Assembly: GCF_022968135.1 (NCBI RefSeq)
Contig: NZ_JALJRA010000005.1
Span: 186,001 to 250,000 of the forward strand
Length of the DNA stretch: 64,000 nucleotides
Reading direction: 5' to 3'
Source of the DNA: Pseudorhizobium tarimense
GTDB taxonomy: Bacteria; Pseudomonadota; Alphaproteobacteria; Rhizobiales; Rhizobiaceae
Positions within the stretch are counted from its first letter, which is position 1. The number at the start of each line of letters is the position of its first letter. Position numbers and translations under genes: made by a program. Below are positions 32,042 through 46,922 of this stretch, one piece after another. The notes under the pieces were generated by a model, which was not told the origin of the DNA, searched no databases, and worked only from the letters and a program-made list of their open reading frames with translations.

Positions 32042-33106
32042 TCAAGCGCCAGGCGAGGCGCCGGTCGACCGCCTCGGTGCTACCGATTGTCGCTCAACGA
32101 TGTAACAGGCAAGCTCGATTCGTCGCGGCAAGGCCGGCAGTCCGGAACATATGTCACGCAGCAGGTCCACGCTCGTGGTGCCGATTTCGCGTGCAGGAAT
32201 GTGGACCGTCGTCAGCGGCGGATTGAGAAACGCTGCCTGTGGAAGGTCATCCATCCCCATGACGGAGACATCGCCCGGAACCGAGTAACCGGCTTGTTGC
32301 AGAGCCGCCATGGTGCCGACTGCGAGGCTCTCGCCTGCCGCGAGAACGGCCGTGAAGTCGAGGCCGCGTTGGCGTATTCGGTGGCCGATCGCCTGCTCGG
32401 CAAGCTCTGGAAGCCAGTCATCCACGGCCATGACGAGATCGTCGGAAGACGCGAGACCCCTTTGTGCAAGTGCATCCTGCCACCCCTCGCGCCGCCTCAC
32501 GATGGTCCTGCGTCCAGGCCGCATCAGGAAGAGGATGCGCTCATGGCCCTGGTCTATCAGATAATCGGTTGCGACCTGCGCCGCTGACCTGTTGCAGGGG
32601 GTCACGCTCGAAAGGCGCATGAATGGGTCGTCGCCGTTGACGAGAACCACCGGCTTGCCGATCCCGCGGGTTGCGGCCAGGGTCCGTTCGTCATCCACGG
32701 TCAGGAAGAGCAGACCTGCGACCTCCGGGTCTTCCCGAGCCTCGTCGAGGACTTCGCGCTCCTCGAGTTCATCGCCGATAGGCCGAGCAATCAGTTCGAT
32801 GCCGAGCGCCTGTGCCCGCTCCCGGATACCCTCCAGTACGTATAGTGTGAACTGGTTTCGCACGTAGTCGATCATGGCGGCACCGGAAGCCGCGAGGATG
32901 ACCTTGGTGCCTGGCGCGGGATTGGGGAGTGCGTAATTGGAAGCCTTGGCTGCGTCCAGGATACGCAGACGGATATCGTCTCTGACGCCCTTCTCTCCCG
33001 ACAGTGCTCTGGAGACGGTGCTGAGGGAAACGCCCACGCGCGCTGCGATGTCCTCAAGCCTCACGCGTCGAGGCTTCTTTCCCCGCTTACCGTGTCCAGT
33101 GTCCAT
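32042..33106 (-). CDS. LacI-family transcriptional regulator
   Basis: 354 residues with an N-terminal LacI helix-turn-helix (VRLEDIAARVGVSLSTVSRA), hinge, and periplasmic-binding-like effector domain (VILAASGAAMIDYVRNQFTL, GFTAVLA-type core, MGMDDLPQAAFLNPPLTTVH). ATG 33106 has GGAGGGG upstream. It is divergent from the uronide catabolic operon and is its probable repressor, with a two-copy repeat in the shared promoter region. Confidence 0.92.
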   Translation of the reverse strand: MDTGHGKRGKKPRRVRLEDIAARVGVSLSTVSRALSGEKGVRDDIRLRILDAAKASNYALPNPAPGTKVILAASGAAMIDYVRNQFTLYVLEGIRERAQALGIELIARPIGDELEEREVLDEAREDPEVAGLLFLTVDDERTLAATRGIGKPVVLVNGDDPFMRLSSVTPCNRSAAQVATDYLIDQGHERILFLMRPGRRTIVRRREGWQDALAQRGLASSDDLVMAVDDWLPELAEQAIGHRIRQRGLDFTAVLAAGESLAVGTMAALQQAGYSVPGDVSVMGMDDLPQAAFLNPPLTTVHIPAREIGTTSVDLLRDICSGLPALPRRIELACYIVERQSVAPRRSTGASPGA

Positions 33107-33127: not shown

Positions 33128-33165
33128 ATTGCAAAAAATTTTCAGATTGCGCAAGAAATTTCAAG
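33128..33165. repeat. Tandem imperfect repeat in the LacI/GH105 promoter region (candidate operators)
   Basis: Copy one 33128-33145 (ATTGCAAAAAATTTTCAG) and copy two 33146-33165 (ATTGCGCAAGAAATTTCAAG) are adjacent. The second contains the palindrome TTGCGCAA. The position, between the divergent LacI gene and its presumed target operon, suggests regulator binding; not proven. Confidence 0.4.
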
Positions 33166-33240
33166 ATGATTACATCCTGCTGCTGCCAGGAGGAGGGGCG
33201 CCGATATTCAGCGCCCTAGTCAGCTAGGAGGAAGTTGCGA

Positions 33241-34341
33241 ATGCAGGATGCGGCGGCCGATCTGCGCCGAAAGCTCGATCTGCTCGTGTCCGGGATGACC
33301 GGGCTGCGACACGATGGCCGCTTCGATGAGCCGAATCTCGACGGTACGGCTGGCGACTATATCTCCTTCGAAAGCTGGGAGTGGCCGCAGGGTGTCGGGC
33401 TTTACGGGCTTATCCGGCTTTGGCAGTTCACCGGCCGGGAGGACCTGAGGCACTTGATTGAAGACTGGTACTCTGCCCATCTTGTTGCCGGCCTTCCTTC
33501 TTTGAACGTCAACACGACCGCGCCCATGTTGGGACTGTCTGTCTTGTGGCAGGAAACGAAGGATCCGCGATGGCAGGGGCCGCTTGACGATTGGGCCAAC
33601 CGGGTCATGCGGGAGTTGGGACGGACGGAAGAGGGGGCCTTTGAGCACCATGTCTCGGACAAGATCAACCACCACGAACTGTGGGACGACACGCTTTACA
33701 TGGTGGCGCTGTTCCTCGCCTCATACGGACAGGCAAGCGGGAGGCAGGAACTGGTCGACGAAGCGGCTCGGCAGTTTCTGGTTCACACCCGCTACCTAGC
33801 GGACAGAAAGACCGGATTGTGGTTTCATGGATGGACCTTCGACGGAAGGCACAATTTTGCCGAGGCCAGGTGGGCACGCGGAAATGCCTGGATCACAGCA
33901 GGCATGCTTGACCTTTTCGATCTGGCCGAGATGCCCGAACCGGTAAAGGCGTTTCTACTCGGCGTGCTTGCTGCACAGGTAGATGCTCTCCTTCCGCTTC
34001 AGGCGCCGTCCGGCGCATGGCGAACTCTGCTCGACGACCCAAGCTCCTATGAGGAGATCTCGGCCACTGCCGGGATAGGGTACGGGCTTCTCAAAGGTTA
34101 CAGGCTCGGCCTTGGAACGCCAGCGTGGCGGACAGCGGGCATGAAGGCAGTCGAGGCCGTGTTGAAGAACATCGACGACACCGGAACCGTGCTCAACGTC
34201 TCCTACGGGACGCGCATGGGCCATGACCTGCAATTCTACAAGGACATCCCGATCCAGCCGACGGGCTACGGGCAGGCACTTTCGATCCTGTGCCTGTCCG
34301 AGGCGCTTCGGCATGTCGATGCGGAAGAACAGGCGGCATGA
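33241..34341 (+). CDS. GH105/GH88-type unsaturated uronyl (rhamnogalacturonyl) hydrolase
   Basis: 366 residues forming an (alpha/alpha)6 barrel. Motifs of unsaturated rhamnogalacturonyl hydrolases are visible: HHELWDDTLYMVALFLASYG (catalytic Asp region), GLWFHGWTFDGRHNFAEARW, ARGNAWITAGM and GIGYGLLKG. It removes 4,5-unsaturated uronic acid from pectin-lyase products. No signal peptide, so it acts on imported oligosaccharides. ATG 33241 is chosen with AGGAGG upstream. First gene of the operon, overlapping kduI. Confidence 0.9.
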   Translation: MQDAAADLRRKLDLLVSGMTGLRHDGRFDEPNLDGTAGDYISFESWEWPQGVGLYGLIRLWQFTGREDLRHLIEDWYSAHLVAGLPSLNVNTTAPMLGLSVLWQETKDPRWQGPLDDWANRVMRELGRTEEGAFEHHVSDKINHHELWDDTLYMVALFLASYGQASGRQELVDEAARQFLVHTRYLADRKTGLWFHGWTFDGRHNFAEARWARGNAWITAGMLDLFDLAEMPEPVKAFLLGVLAAQVDALLPLQAPSGAWRTLLDDPSSYEEISATAGIGYGLLKGYRLGLGTPAWRTAGMKAVEAVLKNIDDTGTVLNVSYGTRMGHDLQFYKDIPIQPTGYGQALSILCLSEALRHVDAEEQAA

Positions 34342-35174
34342 CCATGAAGATCTTGTACGGGGCGGGCCCTCAGGACATCAAGGAATACGACACCGAGCGG
34401 CTGCGCGCGGAATTCCTGATCGAAGATCTCTTTCGGCAGAATGAAGTCCGGTTCACCTATACGCATGTCGATCGGCTGATGCTTGGCGGTGCAGTTCCCT
34501 CTTCAGAGGGGCTGACCTTCGGAAGCGGCGAAGAGATTGGCACGCCGTATCTGCTGTCAGCACGTGAGATGGGAGTCGCCAACCTGGGCGGTGCCGGCAC
34601 GATCATCGTCGACGGGCAAAGCTTCGTGCTCGAGAACCGCGACGTGCTCTATATCGGCCGCGGCGCCCGGAAGATCACGATCTCGAGCGAGACGGCGGAG
34701 ATGCCGGCACGCTTCTACATGAACTCTGTGCCAGCCGGTTCCGATTTCCCGCATCGATTGATCAAACAGGCCGAGTCGAAGCCGCTCGATCTTGGTGAGG
34801 AAAAACGCTCAAACAAGCGCAGGCTGCGGATGTACATCCACCCGGAGGTCTCGCCGTCCTGCTTGCTGCTGATGGGCATTACCGATCTTGCCGAAGGCAG
34901 CATCTGGAACACCATGCCGCCGCATCTGCATGAGCGACGGATGGAGGCTTATTGCTACTTCGACCTCGCGCCGGAAGAGCGGGTCATCCACCTGATGGGC
35001 CGTCCGGAGGAAACCCGGCACCTCATCGTGGCGGATGGCAATTCGGTTCTGTCGCCGGCATGGTCCATCCACATGGGCGCGGGCACCGGCCCTTACGCCT
35101 TCGTCTGGGGCATGACCGGCGAGAACCAGGAATATAACGATGTCGCCCCCGTGGCCCTTTCCGATTTGAAATGA
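34338..35174 (+). CDS. kduI: 5-dehydro-4-deoxy-D-glucuronate isomerase
   Basis: 278 residues, matching KduI length. GGAGTIIVDGQ in the N-terminal cupin and the zinc site in MPPHLHERRMEAYCYFDL (His, His, Glu) with a later IHMGAGTG are family marks, as is FVWGMTGENQ near the end. It isomerises the keto-uronate released by the GH105 enzyme toward KDG. Starts in the GH105 stop codon (ATGA). Confidence 0.95.
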   Translation: MTMKILYGAGPQDIKEYDTERLRAEFLIEDLFRQNEVRFTYTHVDRLMLGGAVPSSEGLTFGSGEEIGTPYLLSAREMGVANLGGAGTIIVDGQSFVLENRDVLYIGRGARKITISSETAEMPARFYMNSVPAGSDFPHRLIKQAESKPLDLGEEKRSNKRRLRMYIHPEVSPSCLLLMGITDLAEGSIWNTMPPHLHERRMEAYCYFDLAPEERVIHLMGRPEETRHLIVADGNSVLSPAWSIHMGAGTGPYAFVWGMTGENQEYNDVAPVALSDLK

Positions 35175-35184
35175 GCGCACTTTG

Positions 35185-37659
35185 ATGAACGCTGAAACAC
35201 ACTGGCTGCAGAAGGCGCTGAACCCTGGAGAAGCCGTCCGGTATTGGCAGGTTGGTGCTATTGCCGAGGAACGCTTCGATGTGCCCGATGCACCGATGAA
35301 GGGTGAAATGGATCCCTTCTTCTTCCTGACCAAGGTGAAGAACTTCATCCCCCACGAATACCCCTGCCGCACGATCTTCGCGGAGACTTATCGCGGCAAG
35401 CGTCCCGATGTGCGTGGGGTGTTCGAGCCCAAGCGATGGTGGCTGCCCTTCGGTTCGCCGCGGCTCGACCTTTCCGGCTTCTGGTTCCGTCCGACGCGGC
35501 TGGCGACCTGGGCTCGTACCTTTATCGACGCCGAGACGGCAGGCAGTGCCATTATCCGCTTGGGCACCTGCGGCGGCGCAGTCGTCTGGCTGAACGGCCA
35601 GGAAGTCGGCTGGATGGCACCCTATAGCCGAAATCTGGAGGCCAAGCAGGAATTCGAGCTGCCGCTGACGCAGGGGATCAACGAACTCACGATCTTCTTC
35701 GAAGATCTTGCCGAACGCGACGCGCGGTATTTCTTCCAGCTTGACTATCTTTCGGGACCGAAGGCCCACCTTTCGCTGCCCGTTCCCGTGCCGGGCTCTG
35801 TTGCGGAAAGCCTAGAGGCGGCACTCGATTGCATGCATTTCGACCGGCCGCATTATTTCGCCGGCGATATCACGTTGCGCCTGGCACAGCCGCTGCCGCT
35901 CGACGTGCAGGTGAACGTCGCGATCGAAGGCGACTTCATGTCGAGGGAGCGCTTCGACTACGACTTTGAGCTTCCTGCAGGGGCGCAGAGTCTTGTTGTC
36001 GGCCCTGCCGAGCAGGCGCCGGCGGACTTCCGGCATTTTCGGATCACGCTGAAGGCGGGGGGCTTCGTGGCGGCACGGTCGCTCGGTGTCGAGATCTGCC
36101 ATGCGGAACGACAAGGCCCGGCGCCGACGTCCCTGCAGCAGCGGATAACGGAGACGCTGGACGAGGTTTCGGAGAACTCGGAGCGGGACACCGTCCGGGC
36201 CTTTGCTCGTCTTGCGAGCGGACGTGCCGGAGCGGAAACCGACGCGATGATCGAGGAGATCCTGCCATCGATCGAGGACTGCCATGACTGCGCCGATTTC
36301 TCGCTGGTGCCGCTGATCTGGTCGCGTACGATGTGGGGCGACGACATCAACGTAAAGACCCGGACTCGTATCGACGCCGCCATTCTCCAATACCGTTATT
36401 GGATGGACGAACCCGGCAATGACGTGCAGTGGTACTTCTCTGAGAACCACGCGCTGCTGTTCCACACCTCCGCCTATCTCGCCGGTCACCTGCTGCCGCA
36501 AGAAACTTTCGTGCGCTCTGGCCGCAAGGGCAGCGAGCAAAGCAAGGTGGGCGCCGAGCGCGTCCGCACCTGGCTCGACCACTTCGAGAAATGGGAAATG
36601 GCGGAGTTCAATTCGGCACCGTACTTTCCGATCGATCTGAAGGGGCTGACGGCGCTTGCGGCGCTTGCGCCGGACACAGATATTGCCGAACGAGCTAAGG
36701 CCGGCATCGTCCGCCTCTGCGAGATCATCGCCCGTTCCGCCCATCACGGCATGGTAACGGCGGCCCAGGGGCGTTCCTACGAGCACACCCTGTGTGCGGG
36801 CCGGTCGCTGGAGCTTTCCGGCGTCGCACGCCTCCTCTGGGGCAAGGGCTGGTATGGCCGGCGTGTCCACGCACTGCCGCAGTTGGCAGTCTGCCTGCGC
36901 GATCACGGGCTGGAGATCCCTGCTGCGCTGGCACCGATCGCCGATCATCGCGACAGGCGGCACCAGGAGTGGCGCTTCGCCCAGGGTGAGAACCGTATTG
37001 CAGCGCTCTACCACTACAAGGGCGAGCAGTTTGCCATAGGCTCCACCGTTCATTACCGCTGGGACGAATGGGGCTATCAGGAGACCGTTCTGCATCTGCG
37101 GATTGGCGAGAAGCCGGAGGCGGCCATCTGGATCAATCATCCCGGCGAGACCATCCAGTTCGGCTATGGCCGCCCGTCCTACTGGGGAGGATGCGGAACC
37201 GTTCCGCGGGTCCAGCAGTATCGGGGCCTGGCGATCCTCGAGTTCGTGCTGAAGCCGGAGCAGCCCGATTTCTCTCATGTGTGGTTTCCGCAGGAAGAGT
37301 TCGATGAGGTTCGCCTGTCCGGTAACATGGCCTACGCCAGAAGCGGAGGTGGGGCAGTCTTTCTAAAGGGAAGCAATGCGCTGACCGCGGTAACCGAGGG
37401 ACCCTCTGCCGGAAACGAACTGCGCCAATACGGAATGACCAGCCGCTGGATCGTGCGTGTCTGTGAGGCAGGCGACCTGACTTTGGTCGAGACGCGATTC
37501 TCTGAACTGGCCGTGGTCGAGGACGCTGACGGCACTCTGGTGGTCAGCGATCCTGAATATGGAGACGTTCGCTTTCATGCCGATGGATCGGTGGATGGCG
37601 AGGGTCGCCGGCTTCAGCGAAGTGATTATACGGTCGCGGGCGATGCAATTATGCTCTAG
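35185..37659 (+). CDS. Unassigned 824-residue cytoplasmic protein, candidate carbohydrate-active enzyme
   Basis: No family recognised with certainty. Residues about 100-200 read like a beta-sandwich with IRLGTCGGAVVWLNGQEVGW, similar in pattern to galactose-binding-like domains. Residues about 370-610 are helix-rich with conserved-looking aromatic and acidic clusters (ENHALLFHTSAYLAGHL, EFNSAPYFPIDLKGL, QGRSYEHTLC), as in an (alpha/alpha) toroid. The rest is a beta-rich C-terminus (AIWINHPGETIQFGYGRPSY, WGGCGTVPRVQQY). This order recalls toroid hydrolases and lyases. No signal peptide. ATG 35185 starts 10 bp after kduI, inside the uronide operon, so a cytosolic step on imported oligosaccharides is likely. 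Confidence 0.8.
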   Translation: MNAETHWLQKALNPGEAVRYWQVGAIAEERFDVPDAPMKGEMDPFFFLTKVKNFIPHEYPCRTIFAETYRGKRPDVRGVFEPKRWWLPFGSPRLDLSGFWFRPTRLATWARTFIDAETAGSAIIRLGTCGGAVVWLNGQEVGWMAPYSRNLEAKQEFELPLTQGINELTIFFEDLAERDARYFFQLDYLSGPKAHLSLPVPVPGSVAESLEAALDCMHFDRPHYFAGDITLRLAQPLPLDVQVNVAIEGDFMSRERFDYDFELPAGAQSLVVGPAEQAPADFRHFRITLKAGGFVAARSLGVEICHAERQGPAPTSLQQRITETLDEVSENSERDTVRAFARLASGRAGAETDAMIEEILPSIEDCHDCADFSLVPLIWSRTMWGDDINVKTRTRIDAAILQYRYWMDEPGNDVQWYFSENHALLFHTSAYLAGHLLPQETFVRSGRKGSEQSKVGAERVRTWLDHFEKWEMAEFNSAPYFPIDLKGLTALAALAPDTDIAERAKAGIVRLCEIIARSAHHGMVTAAQGRSYEHTLCAGRSLELSGVARLLWGKGWYGRRVHALPQLAVCLRDHGLEIPAALAPIADHRDRRHQEWRFAQGENRIAALYHYKGEQFAIGSTVHYRWDEWGYQETVLHLRIGEKPEAAIWINHPGETIQFGYGRPSYWGGCGTVPRVQQYRGLAILEFVLKPEQPDFSHVWFPQEEFDEVRLSGNMAYARSGGGAVFLKGSNALTAVTEGPSAGNELRQYGMTSRWIVRVCEAGDLTLVETRFSELAVVEDADGTLVVSDPEYGDVRFHADGSVDGEGRRLQRSDYTVAGDAIML

Positions 37660-37711: not shown

Positions 37712-38980
37712 ATGAACAAGAAATCGATCCTGGCGGGTCTCGCGCTCGCACTGCTCACCGGCACCGCTGCCAATGCCGGCGATGTTCGCGTGATGTGGTA
37801 TTCCGACGGCGTGGAGGGCGAGGTGATGAAGGACCTCGTCAACCGCTTCATGGAGGAAAACCCGGGCATCAACGTTATCCTCGACAACGTCGCCTATAGC
37901 GTCATCAAGGAGCAACTGCCGGTCCAGCTGGAAGCAGGCAACGGTCCCGATGTCGCCCGCGTCACTGCCATCAAGGACCTGGCGAAGCACTGGCTCGACC
38001 TTCGTCCGCTCGTCAAGGATCCGGCCTACTGGGACGAGAACTTCGGCGACAAGGCGGACTGGATGCGGCCGGATGGCTCCGACCAGATTTCCGGCTTCAT
38101 GACGCAGCTGACGCTGACTGGCGGTTTCGCCAATAAGACGCTGTTCGATCAGGCTGGCGTCGAGATGCCGGGGCCGAAGGCGACCTGGGAAGAGTGGGCT
38201 GCTGCCGCCAAGAAAGTCGCAGACAGTCAGCAGGTGCCGTATCCGATGGCGATCGACCGCTCGGGGCATCGCATCACCGCACCGATGCTGTCCTATGGCG
38301 CCAATTATATCGGTGAAGACGGCAAGCCGGCACCACTGGATCAGGGCGCGAAGGACTTCCTGACGAAGTTCGTCAACTGGACGGAAGAGGGCGTGTTCGC
38401 CAAGGACGTCTGGGTGTCTGCCGCAGGCAACACCTATCGGGCTGCTGCGGATGATTTCATCAATGGGCAGCTCGCCTTCTATTATTCCGGCTCCTGGCAG
38501 GTCGCAAACCTTGCGACCAAGATCGGCAACAACTTCGACTGGGTGGCGACCGGCAGCCCCTGCGGCCCGGCTGCCTGCACCGGCATGCCTGGCGGCGCAG
38601 CCCTCGTCGCTGTCAAGTACACGAAGAACCCGAAGGACGTTGCGACCTTCATGGACTGGATGGCGCAGGAGGATATCGTTCGCGAATTCTCAGAACGCAC
38701 TCTCTTCCTGCCGGCGCACAAGGGTGTTGTCGAGAAGGGCGGGCTGAACTTCGAGACCGAGAACGAACAGGCCAAGGCGGCGCTCGGCACCTTCGTCGAG
38801 GCGTCGAAGTCCACCTCCGAGACGGCGCTGAAGCTTCCGGCGTGGCGCTGGGCGGATACGGTCTATGCGGCGATCGTGACGCGCATCGGCCAGACTCTTG
38901 CGGGCGAGCTCCCGCTGGAGGACGCATTCGCACGCATCGACGCGGATATCGCACAGAAGGTCAAGGATACCGGCCTTTGA
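37712..38980 (+). CDS. Sugar ABC transporter substrate-binding protein (family 1)
   Basis: 422 residues with signal peptide MNKKSILAGLALALLTGTAA (cleavage near ANA-GD). The SBP_bac_1 pattern is seen in VRVMWYSDGVEGEVMKDLVN, QLEAGNGPDVARVTAIKDLA and FINGQLAFYYSGSWQVANL. It lies 53 bp after the 824-aa gene and before two permeases and an ATPase. The operon context suggests pectin-derived oligosaccharides as ligand, but sulfoquinovosides are possible given the neighbouring smo-like genes. Confidence 0.92.
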   Translation: MNKKSILAGLALALLTGTAANAGDVRVMWYSDGVEGEVMKDLVNRFMEENPGINVILDNVAYSVIKEQLPVQLEAGNGPDVARVTAIKDLAKHWLDLRPLVKDPAYWDENFGDKADWMRPDGSDQISGFMTQLTLTGGFANKTLFDQAGVEMPGPKATWEEWAAAAKKVADSQQVPYPMAIDRSGHRITAPMLSYGANYIGEDGKPAPLDQGAKDFLTKFVNWTEEGVFAKDVWVSAAGNTYRAAADDFINGQLAFYYSGSWQVANLATKIGNNFDWVATGSPCGPAACTGMPGGAALVAVKYTKNPKDVATFMDWMAQEDIVREFSERTLFLPAHKGVVEKGGLNFETENEQAKAALGTFVEASKSTSETALKLPAWRWADTVYAAIVTRIGQTLAGELPLEDAFARIDADIAQKVKDTGL

Positions 38981-39006
38981 TCAAGCCGCATCCTGAACTT
39001 GCACAG

Positions 39007-39032
39007 GAGGCTTCCCCATCCGGGGGAGCCTC
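39007..39032 (+). terminator. Hairpin between sugar binding-protein and permease genes
   Basis: GAGGCTTCCCC and GGGGGAGCCTC form an 11-bp stem with one G-T pair and a 4-base loop. No T run. Intra-operon position suggests mRNA stabilisation or attenuation that favours the binding protein. Confidence 0.5.
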
Positions 39033-39068
39033 TCGATATGCCCTTTGCTGTTTCGCCTGGAGGAGTTG

Positions 39069-40100
39069 ATGACACCGATTGCGTCGTCAAGCCCCGCGTC
39101 CAACCGACGCCTCGGCTCCATTCTGTTTGTGCCCGTTCAGTTCGTGATGACGCTGATCGACGCGCCCTTGCGGGCTTTGCAGAAGCTCACCGGCATCTCG
39201 GGCATGGCGATGTTCTTCCTGGCACCGAACATGCTGATCTTCGGCATTTTCGTGCTGCTGCCGCTCGCCATCAACTTCGTTTATTCGATGACAGGCGGAA
39301 CCGCATTTTTTCTCGCGGATCGCACCTTCATCGGCTTTGACCAGTATTCGCGCCTCTTCGAGTGCGGCAATTACCTGGACCCGCTGTCGTGCCAGGAGGA
39401 TGCTTTCTGGACCGCGGTTGGCAACACCGCCTGGTTCGTCGTGCTGCAGGTCACGCTGATGATCCTGATGGCGCTTGGCACGGCCCTCATTCTCAATCGC
39501 GATCTCCGCGCCCGCTCCTTCTGGCGCGCCGTCTTCTTCTTTCCGGTCCTCCTGTCACCAGTCGTCGTCGGCCTGATCTGGAAATGGATCCTGCAGCGCC
39601 AGGGCCTGTTGAACTTCGCGTTGTTCGAGATGGGGCTGGAGCCGCACAACTGGCTGACCGATCGGACCTGGGCGTTCGCTGCGGCAGTCGCAGTCTCGAT
39701 CTGGGCGCATATGGGCTTCTATGCCCTGATCCTGCTTGCGGGGCTGCAGGCGATTCCGAAGGATCTTTACGAAGCGGCGGAGATGGACGGCACCAAGGCG
39801 GCACGGGTCTTCTGGCGGATCACCCTGCCTCTGCTCGCGCCGAACCTGTTGGTAGTTGTCGTTCTTGCCTTGATTAAAGCGGTGCAAGTGTTCGATGAAG
39901 TCTACGTCCTCACCGGCGGTGGTCCCGGCACGAGCACGATGTTCCTCACCCAATATATCTACGAGACCGGCTTTGCCTCCCAGCTGCGCAATCCTGGCCT
40001 TGCGGCCGCAGCCTCCATTCTCATGGGGCTCGTTCTTGTCGTCCTCACACTGTTCCAGCTTGGCATTGGGCGGCGAACCGAAGGCAAGAGGAAGCGCTGA
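39069..40100 (+). CDS. Sugar ABC transporter permease (MalF/UgpA type)
   Basis: 343 residues with six or more membrane segments; EAA loop LYEAAEMDGTKAARVFWRIT and C-terminal family motif VFDEVYVLTGGGPGTSTMFL. A periplasmic loop contains two Cys (ECGNYLDPLSCQEDAF), as in a subset of rhizobial importers. ATG 39069 has GGAGG at short distance. It overlaps the second permease gene (TGATG). Confidence 0.92.
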   Translation: MTPIASSSPASNRRLGSILFVPVQFVMTLIDAPLRALQKLTGISGMAMFFLAPNMLIFGIFVLLPLAINFVYSMTGGTAFFLADRTFIGFDQYSRLFECGNYLDPLSCQEDAFWTAVGNTAWFVVLQVTLMILMALGTALILNRDLRARSFWRAVFFFPVLLSPVVVGLIWKWILQRQGLLNFALFEMGLEPHNWLTDRTWAFAAAVAVSIWAHMGFYALILLAGLQAIPKDLYEAAEMDGTKAARVFWRITLPLLAPNLLVVVVLALIKAVQVFDEVYVLTGGGPGTSTMFLTQYIYETGFASQLRNPGLAAAASILMGLVLVVLTLFQLGIGRRTEGKRKR

Positions 40101-41164
40101 TGGGAGCGGCTGCACGTTTCATCTTCCGCCGTCGTGGCAGCAATGGCCGAGGAAAGGGCTGGCACTGGACCGATATCGTTACCTGGGTGTGGCTGGTTTG
40201 CGGATTGCTGATCATGTTCGGCCCTGCCGTCTGGCTTGGGTTCTCCTCGTTCAAGACCCCGGCCGCGCTTGCCGAGTTTCCACCAACGATCCTTCCCTAC
40301 GTGACGCAGGAGGTAAGGGTCGAAGGCTATGACAAGCCGCTCGCCCTTTATGAAGCAACGCTAGAGGGCGGAGGCACGCGGGTGCTGGCGGAGGTACGCC
40401 GTATTGGCATCGTCAGCCAGATGGTCGATCCCAATGCGCCTGGCGAAATCATCAAGGTCAACATTGCCGATCGTGCGCCCGTTCGCACGATGTCGTTTGC
40501 GACCGAGAATTACACGCAGCCATTCGTCCAGTTCGACTTCGTCCAGTACCTGTGGAATTCCGTCTTCGTGACCGTCATGGCGACGCTCATTACGCTGGTG
40601 GTGAATTCGATGGCAGCGTTCGCACTGTCGAAATACGAGTTTCGCGGTCGGTCAGTGGCAATGCTCATCATCCTGGCGACGCTGATGGTGCCGCTATCGG
40701 TGATCATGGTGCCGCTCTATTCGATCATCTCGACGATCGGCCTGTTCAACAACCTCTGGGGCGTCATCCTGCCGACAGTTGCGACGCCGACGGGGGTCTT
40801 CATCCTGCGCCAGTATATGCTGACCATCCCGGATGAACTGATCGATGCGGCACGCATGGACAAGGCGTCGGAATGGCAGATCTACTGGCGCATCGTGCTG
40901 CCACTTGCTGCCCCAGCGCTTGCGGTACTGGCAATCTTTTCCGTCGTCTGGCGCTGGAACGACTTCCTCTGGCCGCTCATCGTGCTGTCGCGCAGAGAGC
41001 TCTACACGCTGCAGGTGGGCCTCAGCATCTATGCCGGGGAGCTGAACGTGCAGTGGCACTTCATCCTCGCGATGACGGTGGTTACGATGATCCCGGTCGT
41101 GCTGGTGTTCATCTTCCTGCAGCGCTTCATCACCACCGGCATTGCCGGTGCAGGACTCAAGTAA
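40100..41164 (+). CDS. Sugar ABC transporter permease (MalG/UgpE type) with enlarged periplasmic loop
   Basis: 354 residues, longer than the usual 280. An insertion of about 80 residues after the first membrane helix (VTQEVRVEGYDKPLALYEAT onward to NYTQPFVQFDF) is probably periplasmic and may contact the binding protein. EAA loop IDAARMDKASEWQIYWRIVL and C-terminal RFITTGIAGAGLK are typical. Starts in the stop of the first permease gene. Confidence 0.92.
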   Translation: MGAAARFIFRRRGSNGRGKGWHWTDIVTWVWLVCGLLIMFGPAVWLGFSSFKTPAALAEFPPTILPYVTQEVRVEGYDKPLALYEATLEGGGTRVLAEVRRIGIVSQMVDPNAPGEIIKVNIADRAPVRTMSFATENYTQPFVQFDFVQYLWNSVFVTVMATLITLVVNSMAAFALSKYEFRGRSVAMLIILATLMVPLSVIMVPLYSIISTIGLFNNLWGVILPTVATPTGVFILRQYMLTIPDELIDAARMDKASEWQIYWRIVLPLAAPALAVLAIFSVVWRWNDFLWPLIVLSRRELYTLQVGLSIYAGELNVQWHFILAMTVVTMIPVVLVFIFLQRFITTGIAGAGLK

Positions 41165-41174
41165 GGATCCGCAA

Positions 41175-42284
41175 ATGGGCCAGATCAAGCTCACCAACGT
41201 CAAGAAGTCCTTTGGCGCCGTCGACGTTCTGCACGACATCAATCTGCACATCGATGATGGAGAACTGGTGGTGTTCGTCGGGCCTTCCGGATGCGGAAAG
41301 TCGACTCTGTTGCGCGTCATCGCCGGTCTTGAGAAGGTGACCGGAGGTAGCCTTGAGATCGATGGCCGTCGCGTCAACGATGTGACGGCGGCGGAGAGAG
41401 GCCTTGCCATGGTGTTCCAGTCCTACGCGCTCTATCCCCACATGACGGTGCGGCAGAACCTGGCTTTTGGCCTCGAGAATTCGAAGATGCCGAAGGCGGA
41501 AATCGCCGAGCGCGTTGGCGAGGCAGCTCGGATGCTGGAGATCGAGCCTTACATGGACCGGCGGCCCGGCCAGTTGTCCGGCGGCCAGCGCCAGCGTGTC
41601 GCAATTGGCCGTGCTATCGTCCGCCGCCCGGTCGCCTTCCTGCTCGACGAGCCCCTGTCCAACCTCGATGCGGAGTTGCGCGTCTCCACGCGCGCAGAAT
41701 TGGCGGCTCTCCACGCCCGTCTTTCCTCAACGATGATCTATGTGACCCACGACCAGGTGGAGGCGATGACGCTTGCCGACCGCATTGTCGTAATGCGTGC
41801 AGGACGCATAGAGCAGGTCGGGACACCGCTCGAACTCTACAACATGCCCGCCAACCGCTTTGTCGCTGGCTTCATCGGGGCGCCGCACATGAATTTCCTG
41901 CGCGGCGATATCGTTGAGCATACCCCTGGCACAGCCATTCTGTCGCTTGCAGGCGGCTACCGTATTGCGGTGGACCCCGGCACGGCACCGGTCACGGACG
42001 GTCAGAAGGTCACTGTCGGGGTGCGGCCGCAGCATCTCACTGTCAGTCGGGATACGGCAAGCCCGAAAGTCAGGCTCGGGCTGGTCGAGGCATTAGGCGC
42101 CGAGACGGTGGTTCACGGGGAGATCTACGGCGAGCGGCTGATGGCGGTACTGCCAGGCCAGCAGGGATATCGGCCCGGCGATGAGATACATCTCGATCTC
42201 CAGGCTGCCCCGCTGCATGTTTTCGACGAGCAGGATCTGCGGCTGTTCTCAACAGCGGGTGCGAAGGCGAAGGCGCCCGTCTGA
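41175..42284 (+). CDS. Sugar ABC transporter ATP-binding protein (UgpC/MsmK type)
   Basis: 369 residues: Walker A GPSGCGKSTLL, Q-loop FQSYALYPH, signature LSGGQRQRVAIGRA, Walker B AFLLDEPLSNLDAELR and THDQVEAMTLADRI. A C-terminal TOBE/OB regulatory domain follows (VGVRPQHLTV, GAETVVHGEIYG). ATG 41175 with AAGGAT upstream; the frame from 41142 overlaps the permease gene. Last gene of the uronide/sugar operon. Confidence 0.94.
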   Translation: MGQIKLTNVKKSFGAVDVLHDINLHIDDGELVVFVGPSGCGKSTLLRVIAGLEKVTGGSLEIDGRRVNDVTAAERGLAMVFQSYALYPHMTVRQNLAFGLENSKMPKAEIAERVGEAARMLEIEPYMDRRPGQLSGGQRQRVAIGRAIVRRPVAFLLDEPLSNLDAELRVSTRAELAALHARLSSTMIYVTHDQVEAMTLADRIVVMRAGRIEQVGTPLELYNMPANRFVAGFIGAPHMNFLRGDIVEHTPGTAILSLAGGYRIAVDPGTAPVTDGQKVTVGVRPQHLTVSRDTASPKVRLGLVEALGAETVVHGEIYGERLMAVLPGQQGYRPGDEIHLDLQAAPLHVFDEQDLRLFSTAGAKAKAPV

Positions 42285-42384: not shown

Positions 42385-42909
42385 TCAGTTATTGCCTGCG
42401 AAACGCCCAAGCGCTCCGCGCGAGAAGCAGAGGGGGTCGCCATCCCGCAGGGCGACCCTCAAGACCCTGCCAAGCAGGATCGTATGGTCTCCGGCATCAT
42501 GTGCCGAGGCGCGCTGGCATTCGAACCGTGTCAGAGTATCCGGCAGTGTCGGAACCCCTTCTTCGTTCAGCGACCACGGCAGCCCTGCGAAGGCAGAGCC
42601 ACCTTTTGAGAAGGCTCGGCACAAGTGGTCTTGCTCGGCGCCAAGAACGTGGATGGCGAAATGTTCTGCTTGCGTGAAGAGACCGTGCTTCGAGGACGTC
42701 TTGGAGGGAGACCACAGGACAAGCGGCGGCTCGAGTGAAACCGACGCGAAGCTGTTGACGGTCATCCCGATCGGGCCATGTTCTGCCATGGCCGTCACCA
42801 CGGTCACGCCGGTCGTGAAACTTCCCAGCGCGTTTCGATAATCCCGCTGGTTCTGCCGCTCGGGGACGAAGATGAGTTCGCGTGAGGTGGGTGCGGTGGT
42901 GACATCCAT
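42385..42909 (-). CDS. smoA: Flavin reductase (SmoA-like)
   Basis: 174 residues of the flavin-reductase-like domain family: YRNALGSFTTGVTVVTAMAE, IGMTVNSFASVSLEPPLVLW and FAIHVLGAEQDHLCRAFSKG. It would supply reduced FMN to the LLM monooxygenase two genes upstream. ATG 42909 overlaps the aldo-keto reductase stop (TGATG). The symbol rests on the smoC-smoB-smoA gene set rather than on sequence search; a generic HpaC/RutF-type reductase is the fallback. Confidence 0.82.
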   Translation of the reverse strand: MDVTTAPTSRELIFVPERQNQRDYRNALGSFTTGVTVVTAMAEHGPIGMTVNSFASVSLEPPLVLWSPSKTSSKHGLFTQAEHFAIHVLGAEQDHLCRAFSKGGSAFAGLPWSLNEEGVPTLPDTLTRFECQRASAHDAGDHTILLGRVLRVALRDGDPLCFSRGALGRFAGNN

Positions 42910-43802
42910 CAGGGAACCTCTCTTGCCATGGCCAAGGTGTAAAGCTCGAACCATGTTTGGCGGTCAAGCGTCACCTTGGTGGCTTCAGCAAGCTGCGAGA
43001 TCCGCTGCAGGTTGTTGGTCCCAAGCACCGGCAGAATATTGGCCGGGTGGCGGAGAAGCCAAGCGACCGCGACAGCGCTTGGCTCCACCTCTTGCTGAGA
43101 GGCTATCCGTTCGAGTGCCGCGAGCAAGCCGGCTGGGCCTCCAGTGAAGAGTGCCCCGCCGCCGAGGGGCGACCATGCCATCGGCGCGATCATCCGCTCT
43201 TGCAGGTAGGCGAGGTCACCATTGGTGAAGGCCTCCGTTGCCATCAGGCTCATCTCGACCTGGTTCGTGACCAACGTCGTTTCCATCGATGACTGAAGCA
43301 GCGAGAAGTCCCACGGGCGGAAGTTGGAAACGCCGACTGCGCGCACCTTACCGGACTCAACGAGAGCATCCAGCGCCGCACCTGTTTCGTCAGGGTCGAT
43401 CAGCGGATCGGGACGGTGGATCAGCAAGAGATCAAGGTAATCCGTGGCCATGTCGCGGAGAGATGCTTCGACAGAGGTGGTAAGGTGTTCCGCGCTAGTG
43501 TCGTAGTGCTTCAACCGGGCCGAGGAATGACGACCGGCGGGGGCAACGATCCCGCACTTCGTGATGATCTCTAGTTTCTCCCGCAGATGGGGGGCGGCTT
43601 TCAAAGCGGCACCGAAGACGGCCTCGGCGGTGTAGCCGCCGTAGATGTCCGCCTGATCGATGGTCGTGATTCCTTGAGAAAGGCAGGCTTCCACCTTGGC
43701 CTGGACATGGGCAGGGGAGGTGTCCGGATCATCGGCGACCCGCCACATTCCGTAGACGATGCGGCTGAGGGTGAGCTCCGGTGAAAGGGAGATGCGATCC
43801 AT
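42909..43802 (-). CDS. smoB: Aldo/keto reductase (SmoB-like 6-oxo-glucose reductase)
   Basis: 297 residues, (beta/alpha)8 barrel AKR. Catalytic residues are visible: Asp and Tyr in TIDQADIYGGYTAEAVFG, Lys in IITKCGIV and His in LLIHRPDPL. The C-terminal cofactor region carries PVLGTNNLQRISQLAEAT. In the sulfo-SMO pathway SmoB reduces 6-dehydroglucose, formed by desulfonation of sulfoquinovose, to glucose. It overlaps both neighbours by 1 bp, showing one operon. Confidence 0.85.
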   Translation of the reverse strand: MDRISLSPELTLSRIVYGMWRVADDPDTSPAHVQAKVEACLSQGITTIDQADIYGGYTAEAVFGAALKAAPHLREKLEIITKCGIVAPAGRHSSARLKHYDTSAEHLTTSVEASLRDMATDYLDLLLIHRPDPLIDPDETGAALDALVESGKVRAVGVSNFRPWDFSLLQSSMETTLVTNQVEMSLMATEAFTNGDLAYLQERMIAPMAWSPLGGGALFTGGPAGLLAALERIASQQEVEPSAVAVAWLLRHPANILPVLGTNNLQRISQLAEATKVTLDRQTWFELYTLAMAREVP

Positions 43803-44959
43803 TAGCGACGTACTCCATTGCCCAGCGGTGTCGCCGGGGTTTCGCTAGGGACGCGACCGTAGGCATGCGGCAGCGAACAGGTTTTCAGGTGCGGCAGTAG
43901 CTTGCTGCCGAAGTGATCCGCCTCGTCGAGATGCGGATAGCCGGAGAAGATGAAGGCGCGGATGCCCATCTTTTGGTAGGCGTCGATCTCTGAGAGCACT
44001 TGGTCGGTGGAGCCGACGAGAGCGGCACCGCAGCCTGAACGGGCGCGCCCGATGCCAGTCCACAGATGGGGTTCCACATAGCCGAACTGATCTGCGAGTT
44101 CGCGGGCACGCGCCTGATGCTCCACCCCGAGCGAGATGCTGTCATGGGCACGGGAGCGGATCAGCTTGCCGTATTCGTCGTCCAGCTTCGAAACGAGATG
44201 CTCGGCGTAGTCTCGCGCTTCCTGTTCCGTGTCGCGGACGATGACATGCACGCGCAGGCCGTAATCGAGCACGCGTCCGTGCGCCTGGGCTCGTTCATGG
44301 ACGGCACGCATACGCTCGGCCAGTTGTTCCTTCGGTTCGGGCCACATGAGATAGACGTCGCATTGCGCGCCGCAAAGTTCTAGGGCGTCGGGAGAGTAGC
44401 CGCCGAAATAGAGAAGGGGACCGCCGTTTTGCTGGTAGGGCTTGGCCGGATCTGTAGGCACTCCTTTGAAGTGATAAACCTCGCCGTCGTGGTCGATGGT
44501 GTCTCGCGTCCAGGCTTGGCGGAGGATCTGCACCACCTCGTGACTGCGCTTGTAGCGATACGCGCTGTCGGCGACTTCGCCCGGGAAATCCGAACTGATG
44601 ACGTTGAGTGTCAGGCGTCCTTTCAGCATGTGGTCAAGCGTCGCCACCGTTCGGGCCAGCATGATGGGTTGCATTTCGCCACAGCGGATTGCCGCAAGCA
44701 TGTTGATCTGGCTTGTGATCGGCGCACATCCTGCGACAAAGCTCAGTGTGTCCTGGCCGACCTGATAGGAGGAGGGGCAGAGGATGTTCCTGAAGCCGAG
44801 CCTCTCTGCGCTCTGGACTATATCCGAACAGTGCTCCCAGCTGGAGCGAAGCCCTCCATCCGGCACACCAAGATATCGGTAGTCATCGGAGCAGAGCGCG
44901 GCGAACCAGGAGACTTCGGCGGCATCCAAGTCAGCGGAACGTACCGGAACGGCAGTCAT
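43802..44959 (-). CDS. smoC: LLM-class flavin-dependent sulfonate monooxygenase (SmoC-like sulfoquinovose monooxygenase)
   Basis: 385 residues of the SsuD-like luciferase family: EVSWFAALCSDDYRYLGVPD, LAAIRCGEMQPIMLARTVAT, GRLTLNVISSDFPGE, AYRYKRSHEVVQILRQAWT and LLYFGGYSPDALELCG. With FMNH2 and oxygen such enzymes cleave C-SO3. The partnership with an AKR and a flavin reductase in one operon is that of sulfoquinovose oxidation in Agrobacterium rather than ssu alkanesulfonate use, which has ABC genes and no AKR. First gene of the operon, with operators upstream. Confidence 0.85.
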   Translation of the reverse strand: MTAVPVRSADLDAAEVSWFAALCSDDYRYLGVPDGGLRSSWEHCSDIVQSAERLGFRNILCPSSYQVGQDTLSFVAGCAPITSQINMLAAIRCGEMQPIMLARTVATLDHMLKGRLTLNVISSDFPGEVADSAYRYKRSHEVVQILRQAWTRDTIDHDGEVYHFKGVPTDPAKPYQQNGGPLLYFGGYSPDALELCGAQCDVYLMWPEPKEQLAERMRAVHERAQAHGRVLDYGLRVHVIVRDTEQEARDYAEHLVSKLDDEYGKLIRSRAHDSISLGVEHQARARELADQFGYVEPHLWTGIGRARSGCGAALVGSTDQVLSEIDAYQKMGIRAFIFSGYPHLDEADHFGSKLLPHLKTCSLPHAYGRVPSETPATPLGNGVRR

Positions 44960-45004: not shown

Positions 45005-45036
45005 TTGATGTAAATCAATAGTGTATCAATTTGATA
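45005..45036. promoter_or_regulatory. Clustered TTGAT/ATCAA palindromes between the smo-like operon and gntR
   Basis: Two palindromes lie side by side: TTGAT-GTAA-ATCAA (45005-45018) and TATCAA-T-TTGATA (45024-45036). The shared half-site, ATCAA/TTGAT, occurs four times in 32 bp in the 111-bp divergent promoter region. Size and symmetry fit operators of the adjacent HutC-type GntR regulator controlling both directions. Confidence 0.6.
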
Positions 45037-45070: not shown

Positions 45071-45775
45071 ATGAACCAACCCGCTGGCAGCCTTCCCATC
45101 TATCTGCAGATCACGGAGCTGTTGATCCGCGACATTGCGGCGGGGCGTCTGATCGACGGCGAGAAGCTGCCGCCGGAACGGGAGATGGCGGAGCGGCTGG
45201 GGATTGCCATCGGCACCCTGAGGAAGTCGCTTGCCGAGTTGCAGGTGCGCGGCATGCTGGAGCGGGTCCAGGGCTCGGGCAATTATATCCGTGCCGTCAG
45301 CGATCCCAAGAGCGTCTATGCCATGTTCCGACTGGAGCTGCTGCACGGGGGTGGGCTTCCTACGGCTGAAGTGCTTTCGGTCGAACGGCTTGCAAAGCCT
45401 GAGGACCTTCCGGACTTCGGGACGAGCCGAGATGGCCACCGCATTCGCCGTGTCCGGCGCCTGTCCGGCCAGGTCGCGGCTATTGAAGAGATCTGGCTCG
45501 ACGGGGCCTATGCGGAGCGAATTCAGCCTCAGGATCTCTCGGAATCGCTCTACCTCTACTACCGGACGCAGATAGGACTCTGGATTGTCCGCGCGGAGGA
45601 CCGGATTGGCCTGGACGTGGTGCCGGACTGGGCGCCTTCCCTGTTTCAGCCGGCGGTTGGCACCCCGGTCGTCCATATCCTCAGAACAAGCGATGCTCAG
45701 GACGGGAAGCGCGCCGAAGTGTCCCGCACCTGGCTTGATCACGCGGTTGCCCGATACGTCTCGCGGCTCAAATAG
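45071..45775 (+). CDS. GntR-family regulator with UTRA domain (HutC subfamily)
   Basis: 234 residues: N-terminal winged helix (LPIYLQITELLIRDIAAGRL, EKLPPEREMAERLGIAIGTL) followed by a UTRA effector domain (VRRLSGQVAAIEEIWLDGAY, YYRTQIGLWIVRAEDRIGLD). UTRA domains often bind sugars or sugar phosphates. Divergent from smoCBA and directly before a Gfo/Idh/MocA gene, so it probably controls both in response to the catabolic substrate. Confidence 0.9.
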   Translation: MNQPAGSLPIYLQITELLIRDIAAGRLIDGEKLPPEREMAERLGIAIGTLRKSLAELQVRGMLERVQGSGNYIRAVSDPKSVYAMFRLELLHGGGLPTAEVLSVERLAKPEDLPDFGTSRDGHRIRRVRRLSGQVAAIEEIWLDGAYAERIQPQDLSESLYLYYRTQIGLWIVRAEDRIGLDVVPDWAPSLFQPAVGTPVVHILRTSDAQDGKRAEVSRTWLDHAVARYVSRLK

Positions 45776-45785
45776 GAATGCACAG

Positions 45786-46922
45786 ATGATGTTGAACTAC
45801 GGTGTGATCGGATGCGGAATGATGGGGCAGGAGCACCTCCGCAATATCGCGCTTCTCTCGAACGCGCAGGTCGGGGCGATTTTCGAGCCTGACCCTGTTA
45901 TGCGGCAGCGAGCGGCCGAGCTCGCGCCAGAGGCTGAATTTGTCAATTCAATCGATGACCTGCTTTCCTTCGAGGCGATCAACTGCCTGCTGATCGCCAG
46001 CCCTAACCATTTGCATCTGAAGCAGTTGGAGCAGGTCGCGGCTGTCAGGCCTCTCCCCGTGCTTGTGGAGAAGCCGCTTTTCACAGTCCTGGACGAAATG
46101 CGCCGCATCGAGGCGCTACGCCAATCTTATCCCGCACCGATCTGGGTGGCGATGGAATACCGCTACATGCCGCCGGTGGCGCGCCTGATCAACGAGGTGG
46201 ATGAGGCGACCGGTGGTGTCAGGATGCTGACCATCCGAGAGCACCGCTTCCCATTTCTGCAGAAGGTCGGCCACTGGAATCGCTTCAACCATCAGACCGG
46301 CGGCACCCTCGTGGAGAAGTGCTGTCACTTCTTCGACCTAATGCGCCATATCCTGAAATCGGATCCGGTTCGAGTGATGGCGTCAGGCGGGCAGGCAGTC
46401 AATCATCTCGACGAGGTTTATGAGGGTCGAAGGCCTGACATTTGGGACAATGCCTATGTTCTTGTCGATTTTGCTTCTGGGGCGAGGGCCATGCTCGAGC
46501 TCTGCATGTTTGCGGAGGGTGCGCGCTACCAGGAAGAAATTTCGGCGATCGGAGCGAAGGGCAAGATTGAATGCAAGGTTCCGGGACCCGGCCGTTTCTG
46601 GCCTGAACATCTTGGCGAGCCCCCGGTTGCGCAAGTCATCGTATCACCGCGCGATCCTAAGGGGCCAAGAAGGATCGATATCCCTGTCGATCCTCAGCTT
46701 CTTGAGGCGGGGGACCACAACGGCTCTACCTTCTACCAACACCAGCGATTCATGAAGGCGGTGTTGGGCCAGGGGCAGACAGAAGTGACCGTCAGCGACG
46801 GCAGCTGGGCAGTCCTGATGGGATTGGCCGCACAGCATTCAGCGATAACCGGCCAGGCGGTCGACATCTCGCCTGCCGGTTTTGCTGCCTTCGAGAATAC
46901 GTCATGCGTAGCAGTCGGGTAG
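45786..46922 (+). CDS. Gfo/Idh/MocA-family oxidoreductase
   Basis: About 378 residues: NAD(P)-binding Rossmann motif YGVIGCGMMGQEHLRNIALL, VLVEKPLFT (the EKP lysine), and substrate-side residues in WNRFNHQTGGTLVEKCCHFF. Members oxidise or reduce sugars and inositols. It starts 10 bp after the GntR gene, so it is in the same transcript. It may act on a sugar or sugar acid linked to the smo-like pathway; it is not part of the described smo core. Confidence 0.88.
   Translation: MMLNYGVIGCGMMGQEHLRNIALLSNAQVGAIFEPDPVMRQRAAELAPEAEFVNSIDDLLSFEAINCLLIASPNHLHLKQLEQVAAVRPLPVLVEKPLFTVLDEMRRIEALRQSYPAPIWVAMEYRYMPPVARLINEVDEATGGVRMLTIREHRFPFLQKVGHWNRFNHQTGGTLVEKCCHFFDLMRHILKSDPVRVMASGGQAVNHLDEVYEGRRPDIWDNAYVLVDFASGARAMLELCMFAEGARYQEEISAIGAKGKIECKVPGPGRFWPEHLGEPPVAQVIVSPRDPKGPRRIDIPVDPQLLEAGDHNGSTFYQHQRFMKAVLGQGQTEVTVSDGSWAVLMGLAAQHSAITGQAVDISPAGFAAFENTSCVAVG

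Follow-up and report, generated by a model that had tools for sequence, protein, structure and literature searches.

The 64,000-nucleotide stretch of the Pseudorhizobium tarimense genome analysed here (the window; contig NZ_JALJRA010000005.1, positions 186,001 to 250,000, in our numbering G000:C46:186001-250000; the genome has 4.86 Mb and is assembled in 50 contigs) carries at positions 42385-44959 three genes, smoC, smoB and smoA, which together with the genes divergent from them very probably form a locus for the oxidative degradation of the plant sulfosugar sulfoquinovose (SQ) by the sulfoquinovose monooxygenase (sulfo-SMO) route, with an enzyme of family GH188 as gateway. According to the functions predicted for the encoded proteins, imported sulfoquinovosyl glycerol would be split to SQ by the NAD-dependent SqgA, SmoA would supply FMNH2, SmoC would use it together with O2 for cleavage of the C-S bond, which would release sulfite and leave 6-oxo-glucose, and SmoB would reduce the latter to glucose. 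The divergent smoCBA and GntR-sqgA operons would be controlled by a GntR/UTRA regulator with its site at 45008-45030, and a convergent ATP-binding cassette (ABC) transporter at 37712-42284, part of a neighbouring lyase module with its own LacI-type site, may also import SQ or its glycerol glycoside.

The three genes lie on the minus strand and would encode an FMNH2-dependent sulfoquinovose monooxygenase of 385 aa (smoC, 43802-44959; Pfam Bac_luciferase), an aldo-keto reductase (AKR) of 297 aa that probably acts as 6-oxo-glucose reductase (smoB, 42909-43802; Pfam Aldo_ket_red) and a flavin reductase of 189 aa, or of 174 aa when translated from an internal ATG at 42909 (smoA, 42385-42954; Flavin_Reduct, PF01613); the names follow those in use for the Agrobacterium tumefaciens sulfo-SMO genes (SmoABC, SmoF, SmoI). 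A first-pass annotation, made by a model from the sequence alone, had proposed a three-gene operon with the sulfo-SMO core, and both the operon and its identity are borne out by our analysis. SmoC is 87.5% identical to PDB chain 7olf (336/384) and 86.7% to 7oh2 (333/384), and SmoB is 75% identical to 7bby (222/296); the PDB names themselves are generic, and we take 7olf and 7oh2 to be SmoC structures and 7bby a SmoB structure, an attribution which reportedly goes back to Sharma et al. 2022. The same annotation had described overlaps of 1 bp throughout, which is correct for smoC/smoB, whereas for smoB/smoA the single base is obtained only from the internal smoA ATG (42909) and the longest frame overlaps by 46 bases. 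Of the 80 named relatives (the 80 best entries of a longer match list, picked irrespective of the lyase module), 69 have all three genes in the order C-B-A, and the array is therefore not a chance one. The whole-genome search returned a single SmoC copy; another genome (G115) has two smoC copies (C1:1249512 and C1:1898431), one of them adjoined by smoB.

The nearest solved relatives of SmoC are 7olf (793 bits) and 7oh2 (786 bits), and not SsuD (220 bits) or MsuD (209 bits), as could have been expected if another luciferase-like monooxygenase (LLM) were its closest kin. Residues W206, R236, H238, R307, Y341 and H343 of SmoC align with W196, R226, H228, R297, Y331 and H333 of SsuD, which we take to be sulfonate/active-site residues; all six are present, with identical letters in 95/95 relatives. 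Neither of the two conditions which the first-pass annotation had named as refuting (closest kinship to other LLMs, loss of the sulfonate-binding residues) holds for this protein. SmoB carries the motifs DQADIYGGY, TKCG and LIHRPDP, presumably the AKR tetrad.

The gateway gene sqgA (45786-46922, plus strand) encodes a predicted GH188-type NAD-dependent sulfoquinovosidase (SQase) of 378 aa with a Gfo/Idh/MocA fold, 63.6% identical to 8zn9 and 51.2% to 8qc3. The bit scores are 525 to 8zn9, 389 to 8qc3 and 386 to 8qc2, the next match having 55. The structures 8QC2 and 8QC3 correspond to FlSqgA and ArSqgA, respectively (Kaur et al. 2023, PMC10755693), and the authors name residues K107, Y136, E189, H193 and H321 of ArSqgA, with R166, L170 (through its backbone) and K172 as sulfonate ligands. 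All eight positions checked in SqgA match these counterparts (K95, Y124, E176, H180, H310, R153, L157 and K159, counted from the ATG at 45789; the chain-to-paper offset is 13). By the offset count Glu163 of ArSqgA lands on a valine, with a glutamate one place on, and is not counted among the eight. The genome holds one close GH188 match and gave no GH31 match in a genome-wide search that was positive in 6/14 control genomes; the GH188 enzyme is the sole SQase found in this genome.

We have also compared the SQase types of 99 smoC loci, in which genes were placed by reference-driven mapping, greedy calling having often taken antisense open reading frames. Some of these loci are copies of one another, and the 95-row SmoC tree leaves out two loci that are short downstream and four identical copies. 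The set also includes loci chosen for holding both the smo genes and the lyase module (L157-L168), so that module frequencies among the 99 or 95 loci are not prevalences, and 12 of the 80 named loci have a flank of less than 8 kb on one side, where a module could be missed. GH188 without the lyase module occurs in 35 loci, GH31 without it in 33, GH188 with the module in 27, and four have neither enzyme within the fetched flanks. GH31 and GH188 never occur together (0/99), and likewise they are not together in the clusters described by Kaur et al. (PMC10755693).

The regulator gene of the GntR/UTRA type (45071-45775, plus strand; PF00392, PF07702) is divergent from smoC, and its product has 69% identity to its counterpart in the smo cluster of L028, an Agrobacterium-titled locus. 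Within the divergent smoC/GntR promoter, at 45008-45030 (minus strand, 23 bp), the sequence ATTGAT is directly repeated at a distance of 11 bp. The core of this element, AATTGATA, was detected in 86/95 smoC upstream stretches of 150 bases (shuffle mean 0.34) and forms part of the consensus aAAAATTGATACActATTGATtTACAT, which is a direct repeat of 11-bp period; the element is common to GH31-type loci (e.g. L028) and GH188-type loci. The copy at 45008-45030 is the only one in the 4.86-Mb genome at up to 3 mismatches, with no second one elsewhere. We consider it a candidate GntR operator, and the regulated set would then comprise smoCBA and GntR-sqgA only. A palindrome at 45024-45036 was also considered as operator and dropped, as relatives retain only one of its halves and it is the direct repeat that is conserved instead. 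A simple scan for promoters and terminators gave no signal of note above shuffles. The first-pass annotation was right but understated, having overlooked both the GntR regulator and sqgA, and these two neighbours further back the sulfo-SMO identity.

A number of observations pull the other way. SmoA is below every NCBIfam cut-off listed and reaches no equivalog, its best match being FerA with 211.9 bits (cut-off 260); it is 60-66% identical to SmoA in Agrobacterium-titled loci (e.g. L028, L030 and L031), PF01613 and its place in the operon mark it as the flavin reductase partner, and one study describes some sulfo-SMO clusters from which a flavin reductase is absent (PMC9594981). Of the four loci that show neither GH188 nor GH31, two (L006 and L050) break off less than 1 kb upstream of smoC, which is not the case for L174 and L175. 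Also, the support consists of the genes, close identity to solved enzymes, catalytic and sulfonate residues, a single-copy element and the lack of a GH31 match, and the activities themselves are predictions.

A complete sulfo-SMO enzyme set with GH188 is of a kind already in print. The sulfo-SMO (sulfo-ASMO) pathway of A. tumefaciens has been described (PMC9594981, PMC12890257), and the table of a review lists SquD/SmoC, SsuE/SmoA and SquF/SmoB as key enzymes (PMC12890257). The locus under study is like the Agrobacterium-titled loci in the smoC-smoB-smoA order and overlap, the divergent GntR gene and the promoter element; in those, however, a SmoF-type ABC transporter and GH31 stand behind the regulator, whereas here GH188 is found and no close SmoF. 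It resembles the GH188 sulfo-SMO clusters of PMC10755693, where sqgA lies in a sulfolytic cluster without GH31 and the sulfonate triad is conserved together with the other residues checked, and differs from them in abutting a lyase-like module, of which the sections consulted make no mention. The legend of Fig. 5 in that paper places Mesorhizobium sp. SCN 65-20 among the GH188 carriers (PMC10755693). In respect to function, the core result settles the annotation: from sulfoquinovosyl glycerol this strain very probably releases both sulfite and glucose, and with its GH188 gene it would not depend on SQ in free form.

The context of the locus raises questions of a different order, regarding SQ importers beyond the SmoF and TRAP (tripartite ATP-independent periplasmic) types, GntR binding at a single conserved site, the neighbourhood of SQ and lyase/KduI genes, and the disposal of 6-oxo-glucose in relatives with smoC and sqgA but without smoB. 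Between 32042 and 42284 lies a set of genes referred to here as the lyase module. It starts with a gene for a LacI-family regulator (32042-33106, minus strand; PF00356 with 44.8 bits, cut-off 27, and PF13377), whose start is placed at an internal ATG, the longest open reading frame extending to 33154. A candidate LacI operator, CAGATTGCGCAA, is found at 33143-33154 (plus strand), a single match of a kind that chance could give when only the window is considered. Then follow on the plus strand a GH88-type gene, probably for an unsaturated uronyl hydrolase (33235-34341; PF07470 with 284 bits), which also matches NCBIfam NF051900, 'beta-galactosidase BglB', with 542.7 bits (cut-off 420); kduI, for 5-dehydro-4-deoxy-D-glucuronate isomerase (34341-35174; NF002091 with 374.8 bits, cut-off 250); and LYA, a putative oligosaccharide lyase of 824 aa (35185-37659). 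The module ends with the transporter genes, also on the plus strand, coding for a sugar ABC binding protein, the candidate shared importer component for SQ and its glycerol glycoside (37712-38980; PF01547), two permeases (39072-40100 and 40100-41164; both PF00528) and an ATPase of the UgpC/MalK type (41175-42284; NF008653 with 476 bits, cut-off 432). The transporter is convergent with smoCBA. As the first-pass annotation had stated, no alkanesulfonate ssu transporter stands alongside the operon, the local ABC transporter being of sugar type with a UgpC-like ATPase above cut-off.

LYA is outside the Pfam and NCBIfam families, with no match to either at E 0.001 nor to NCBIfam at 0.1. Its predicted model (pLDDT 87.9, built with 36 sequences) has at residues 13-191 a GH2-like N-terminal sugar-binding domain. 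Among the families listed in the structural searches, those that align with residues 314-814 are lyases for chondroitin, hyaluronan, alginate and heparin and a dermatan sulfate epimerase. These toroid-lyase alignments have Z of 10-11.6 over about 370-450 residues, with rmsd of 5.4-7.6, middling Z values being common according to the tool; the top Foldseek rows are GH2 enzymes with low TM-score. Residues N421, H422 and Y532 are invariant in the 36 aligned sequences and could, by residue type, be the counterpart of the catalytic Asn/His/Tyr of toroid-type lyases. LYA is putatively an intracellular uronate-oligosaccharide lyase, possibly of an unclassified family. Intracellular routes for uronate oligosaccharides combine a toroid lyase, a GH88 or GH105 enzyme and KduI. 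The module resembles such routes, and also the ulvan oligosaccharide dehydratase pathway (PMC8511951), in bringing together a predicted lyase-like fold, a GH88-type hydrolase and KduI as neighbours, and is unlike them in that LYA falls into none of the Pfam or NCBIfam families and carries the extra GH2-like domain. In G194, G138, G120, G190, G140, G202, G250, G029, G047, G289 and G107 (some of them again among L177-L185), no more than a few hundred bases separate distant LYA paralogues (32-34%) from binding-protein paralogues (35-39%); the pairing of LYA with the binding protein is therefore a family trait. In L151 and L152, LYA, GH88 and KduI genes have distant DctM/DctP-like genes nearby and no adjoining ABC transporter of the window's type (wSBP-type).

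We have then considered whether this transporter may serve both modules. Importers of the types found in relatives' smo operons (SmoF-type ABC and TRAP) have no close match in the genome, the best being 26% for SmoF and 32% for DctP, and both were dropped as candidates elsewhere in the genome, having distant matches only; such importers are not among the enzymes that define the pathway. The neighbourhoods were surveyed within 12 kb around smoC, counting SmoF at 45% identity or more and TRAP at 60% or more to two references. TRAP genes are near smoC in 26/99 loci, unlike the present one, which has none; all 27 module-bearing loci have the wSBP-type ABC transporter and no SmoF or TRAP gene. Homologues of the binding protein stand beside smo genes in L057 (42%), L080 (46%) and L171 (37%), which have no lyase module, and because of this the modules may share an importer, with the transporter at 37712-42284 also importing SQ or its glycerol glycoside. 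Several results argue against such sharing. The transporter belongs to the operon of the lyase module, and many genomes that lack smoC have modules with this type of transporter; the GntR core AATTGATA is in 1/40 module promoters and in 0/44 gaps between LYA and the binding-protein gene; and the predicted fold of the binding protein is that of a generic oligosaccharide binder, with SmoF entries at rank 12 and lower. Such a fold allows no ligand call; in sequence, the binding protein shares 20.7% identity over 290 aa with the SmoF-type protein found in L028.

It is quite possible, if somewhat doubtful, that the lyase/GH88/KduI/ABC module is functionally unrelated to SQ, the linkage stemming from a common niche or from a block that was joined long ago, and that SQ enters by another importer. 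The two modules have separate promoter motifs, TTGCGCAA being upstream of the GH88 gene in 38/40 module loci and in 0/95 smoC upstreams; none of the three importer types is seen near smoC in 17/99 loci; and the module is found without smoC nearby in 19 of 44 LYA-tree rows. On the other hand, wSBP-type transporters adjoin smo genes in the three loci lacking the lyase module, and the modules mostly lie close together where both occur. In a family sample of 297 genomes, SmoC (E 1e-100) and LYA (E 1e-20) have matches in 46 genomes each; with stricter limits SmoC (at least 70% identity) is in 44, LYA (at least 50%) in 39, and both in 19 including this one, as counted by hand from the match tables. 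In 17 of these 19 the modules are within about 10 kb, and in G047 and G140 they are on separate contigs. Among the 80 named loci, 14 hold the module.

The linkage is achieved by three different junctions. In the first, seen in the window, L002, L003 and others, the smoA end faces the ATPase end; in the second (L016, L161 and others) the LacI end adjoins the sqgA end; in the third (L158-L160, L162-L164 and L166-L168) the smoA end adjoins the LacI end. In a LYA tree of 47 rows (44 and 3 outgroup) made by a quick method, the second and third junctions each form one group and the first is in a third part, mixed with unlinked rows, with at least four changes between linked and unlinked states. Three junctions in different clades fit repeated joining, but gains and losses are not told apart by this tree. 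A single early joining followed by rearrangement agrees with it as well, given that the first and third junctions differ by an inversion of the module, and all three arrangements could stem from inversions of one joined block.

A distinct association was found for smoB. Among the 95 distinct SmoC loci, smoB is absent beside smoC in 14/25 with the module versus 2/70 without it (Fisher p 2e-8, a value that ignores kinship). When grouped in 31 clusters at 92% SmoC identity, those with the module divide into 4 without smoB, 4 with smoB and 1 mixed, and those without the module into 2 without and 19 with smoB, one further cluster mixing all kinds; independent-pair tests on the SmoC tree yield only 2 and 4 pairs on starred branches, too few to judge the link. 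For the named loci, 8/14 module-bearing ones are without smoB and none of the other 66 with 2.5 kb downstream lacks it. A SmoB search at E 1e-20 gave no match in 5/8 of the genomes, of unstated completeness, of L003, L010, L012, L013, L018, L020, L022 and L062, and in the remaining three partial matches only (35-37%). A second search, which found the protein in 6/6 control genomes with smoB in the locus, covered nine genomes without smoB beside a smoC: none was found at that limit in G030, G086, G195, G226 and G264, G059 and G206 have matches of 36-37% only (G206 seems to be L062's genome a second time), a 51% homologue occurs elsewhere in G051, and in G115 smoB stands beside the second smoC copy. 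In L003, L010, L012, L018, L020 and L022, smoC and sqgA are kept, neither smoB nor smoA is in the locus, and smoC abuts the ATPase gene. Rhizobium wenxiniae is one of the relatives without smoB.

A way of handling 6-oxo-glucose without SmoB would account for the absence of smoB chiefly from loci with joined modules. It is rather unlikely, although conceivable, that the modules act together in this way, with a third-type (non-SmoF, non-TRAP) importer of SQ glycosides and, for example, oxidation of 6-oxo-glucose to a uronate entering the KduI route; the conversion toward uronate is speculation, and the substrate might also be one in which SQ and uronic acid occur together. The absence of smoB from the locus in more than half of the joined-module relatives, with no close smoB elsewhere in most of the genomes checked, would also suit a role of SQ here mainly as sulfur source, carbon recovery through SmoB being secondary, but in the window smoB is intact with its 75% identity to 7bby, and a dedicated SQase and GntR regulator fit catabolism, which makes this role improbable. 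Least credible by far is a general alkanesulfonate scavenging operon of the SsuD/MsuD kind with an incidental reductase, for SmoC, even if in the SsuD-like LLM family (TIGR03565, 252 bits) and sharing its sulfonate-site residues with SsuD and MsuD, is far below the SsuD equivalog cut-off of 518, scores 793 bits to 7olf versus 220 to SsuD, and has GH188 and an aldo-keto reductase as partners and a sugar-type transporter adjoining.

In the literature searched, which did not extend to the main Agrobacterium paper, the promoter element, the transporter gap and the lyase-module linkage of this sulfo-SMO locus were not found in print, and searches on SQ with KduI, or on SQ with polysaccharide lyase and gene cluster, gave no title or abstract opening on such linkage. 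Finally, a membrane gene of family PF03601 (YeiH-like) lies near smoC in 17/99 loci, 14 of them with TRAP genes (e.g. L009, 15733-16863); its product is perhaps a sulfite exporter, and one member of the family is present in this genome, on contig C50.

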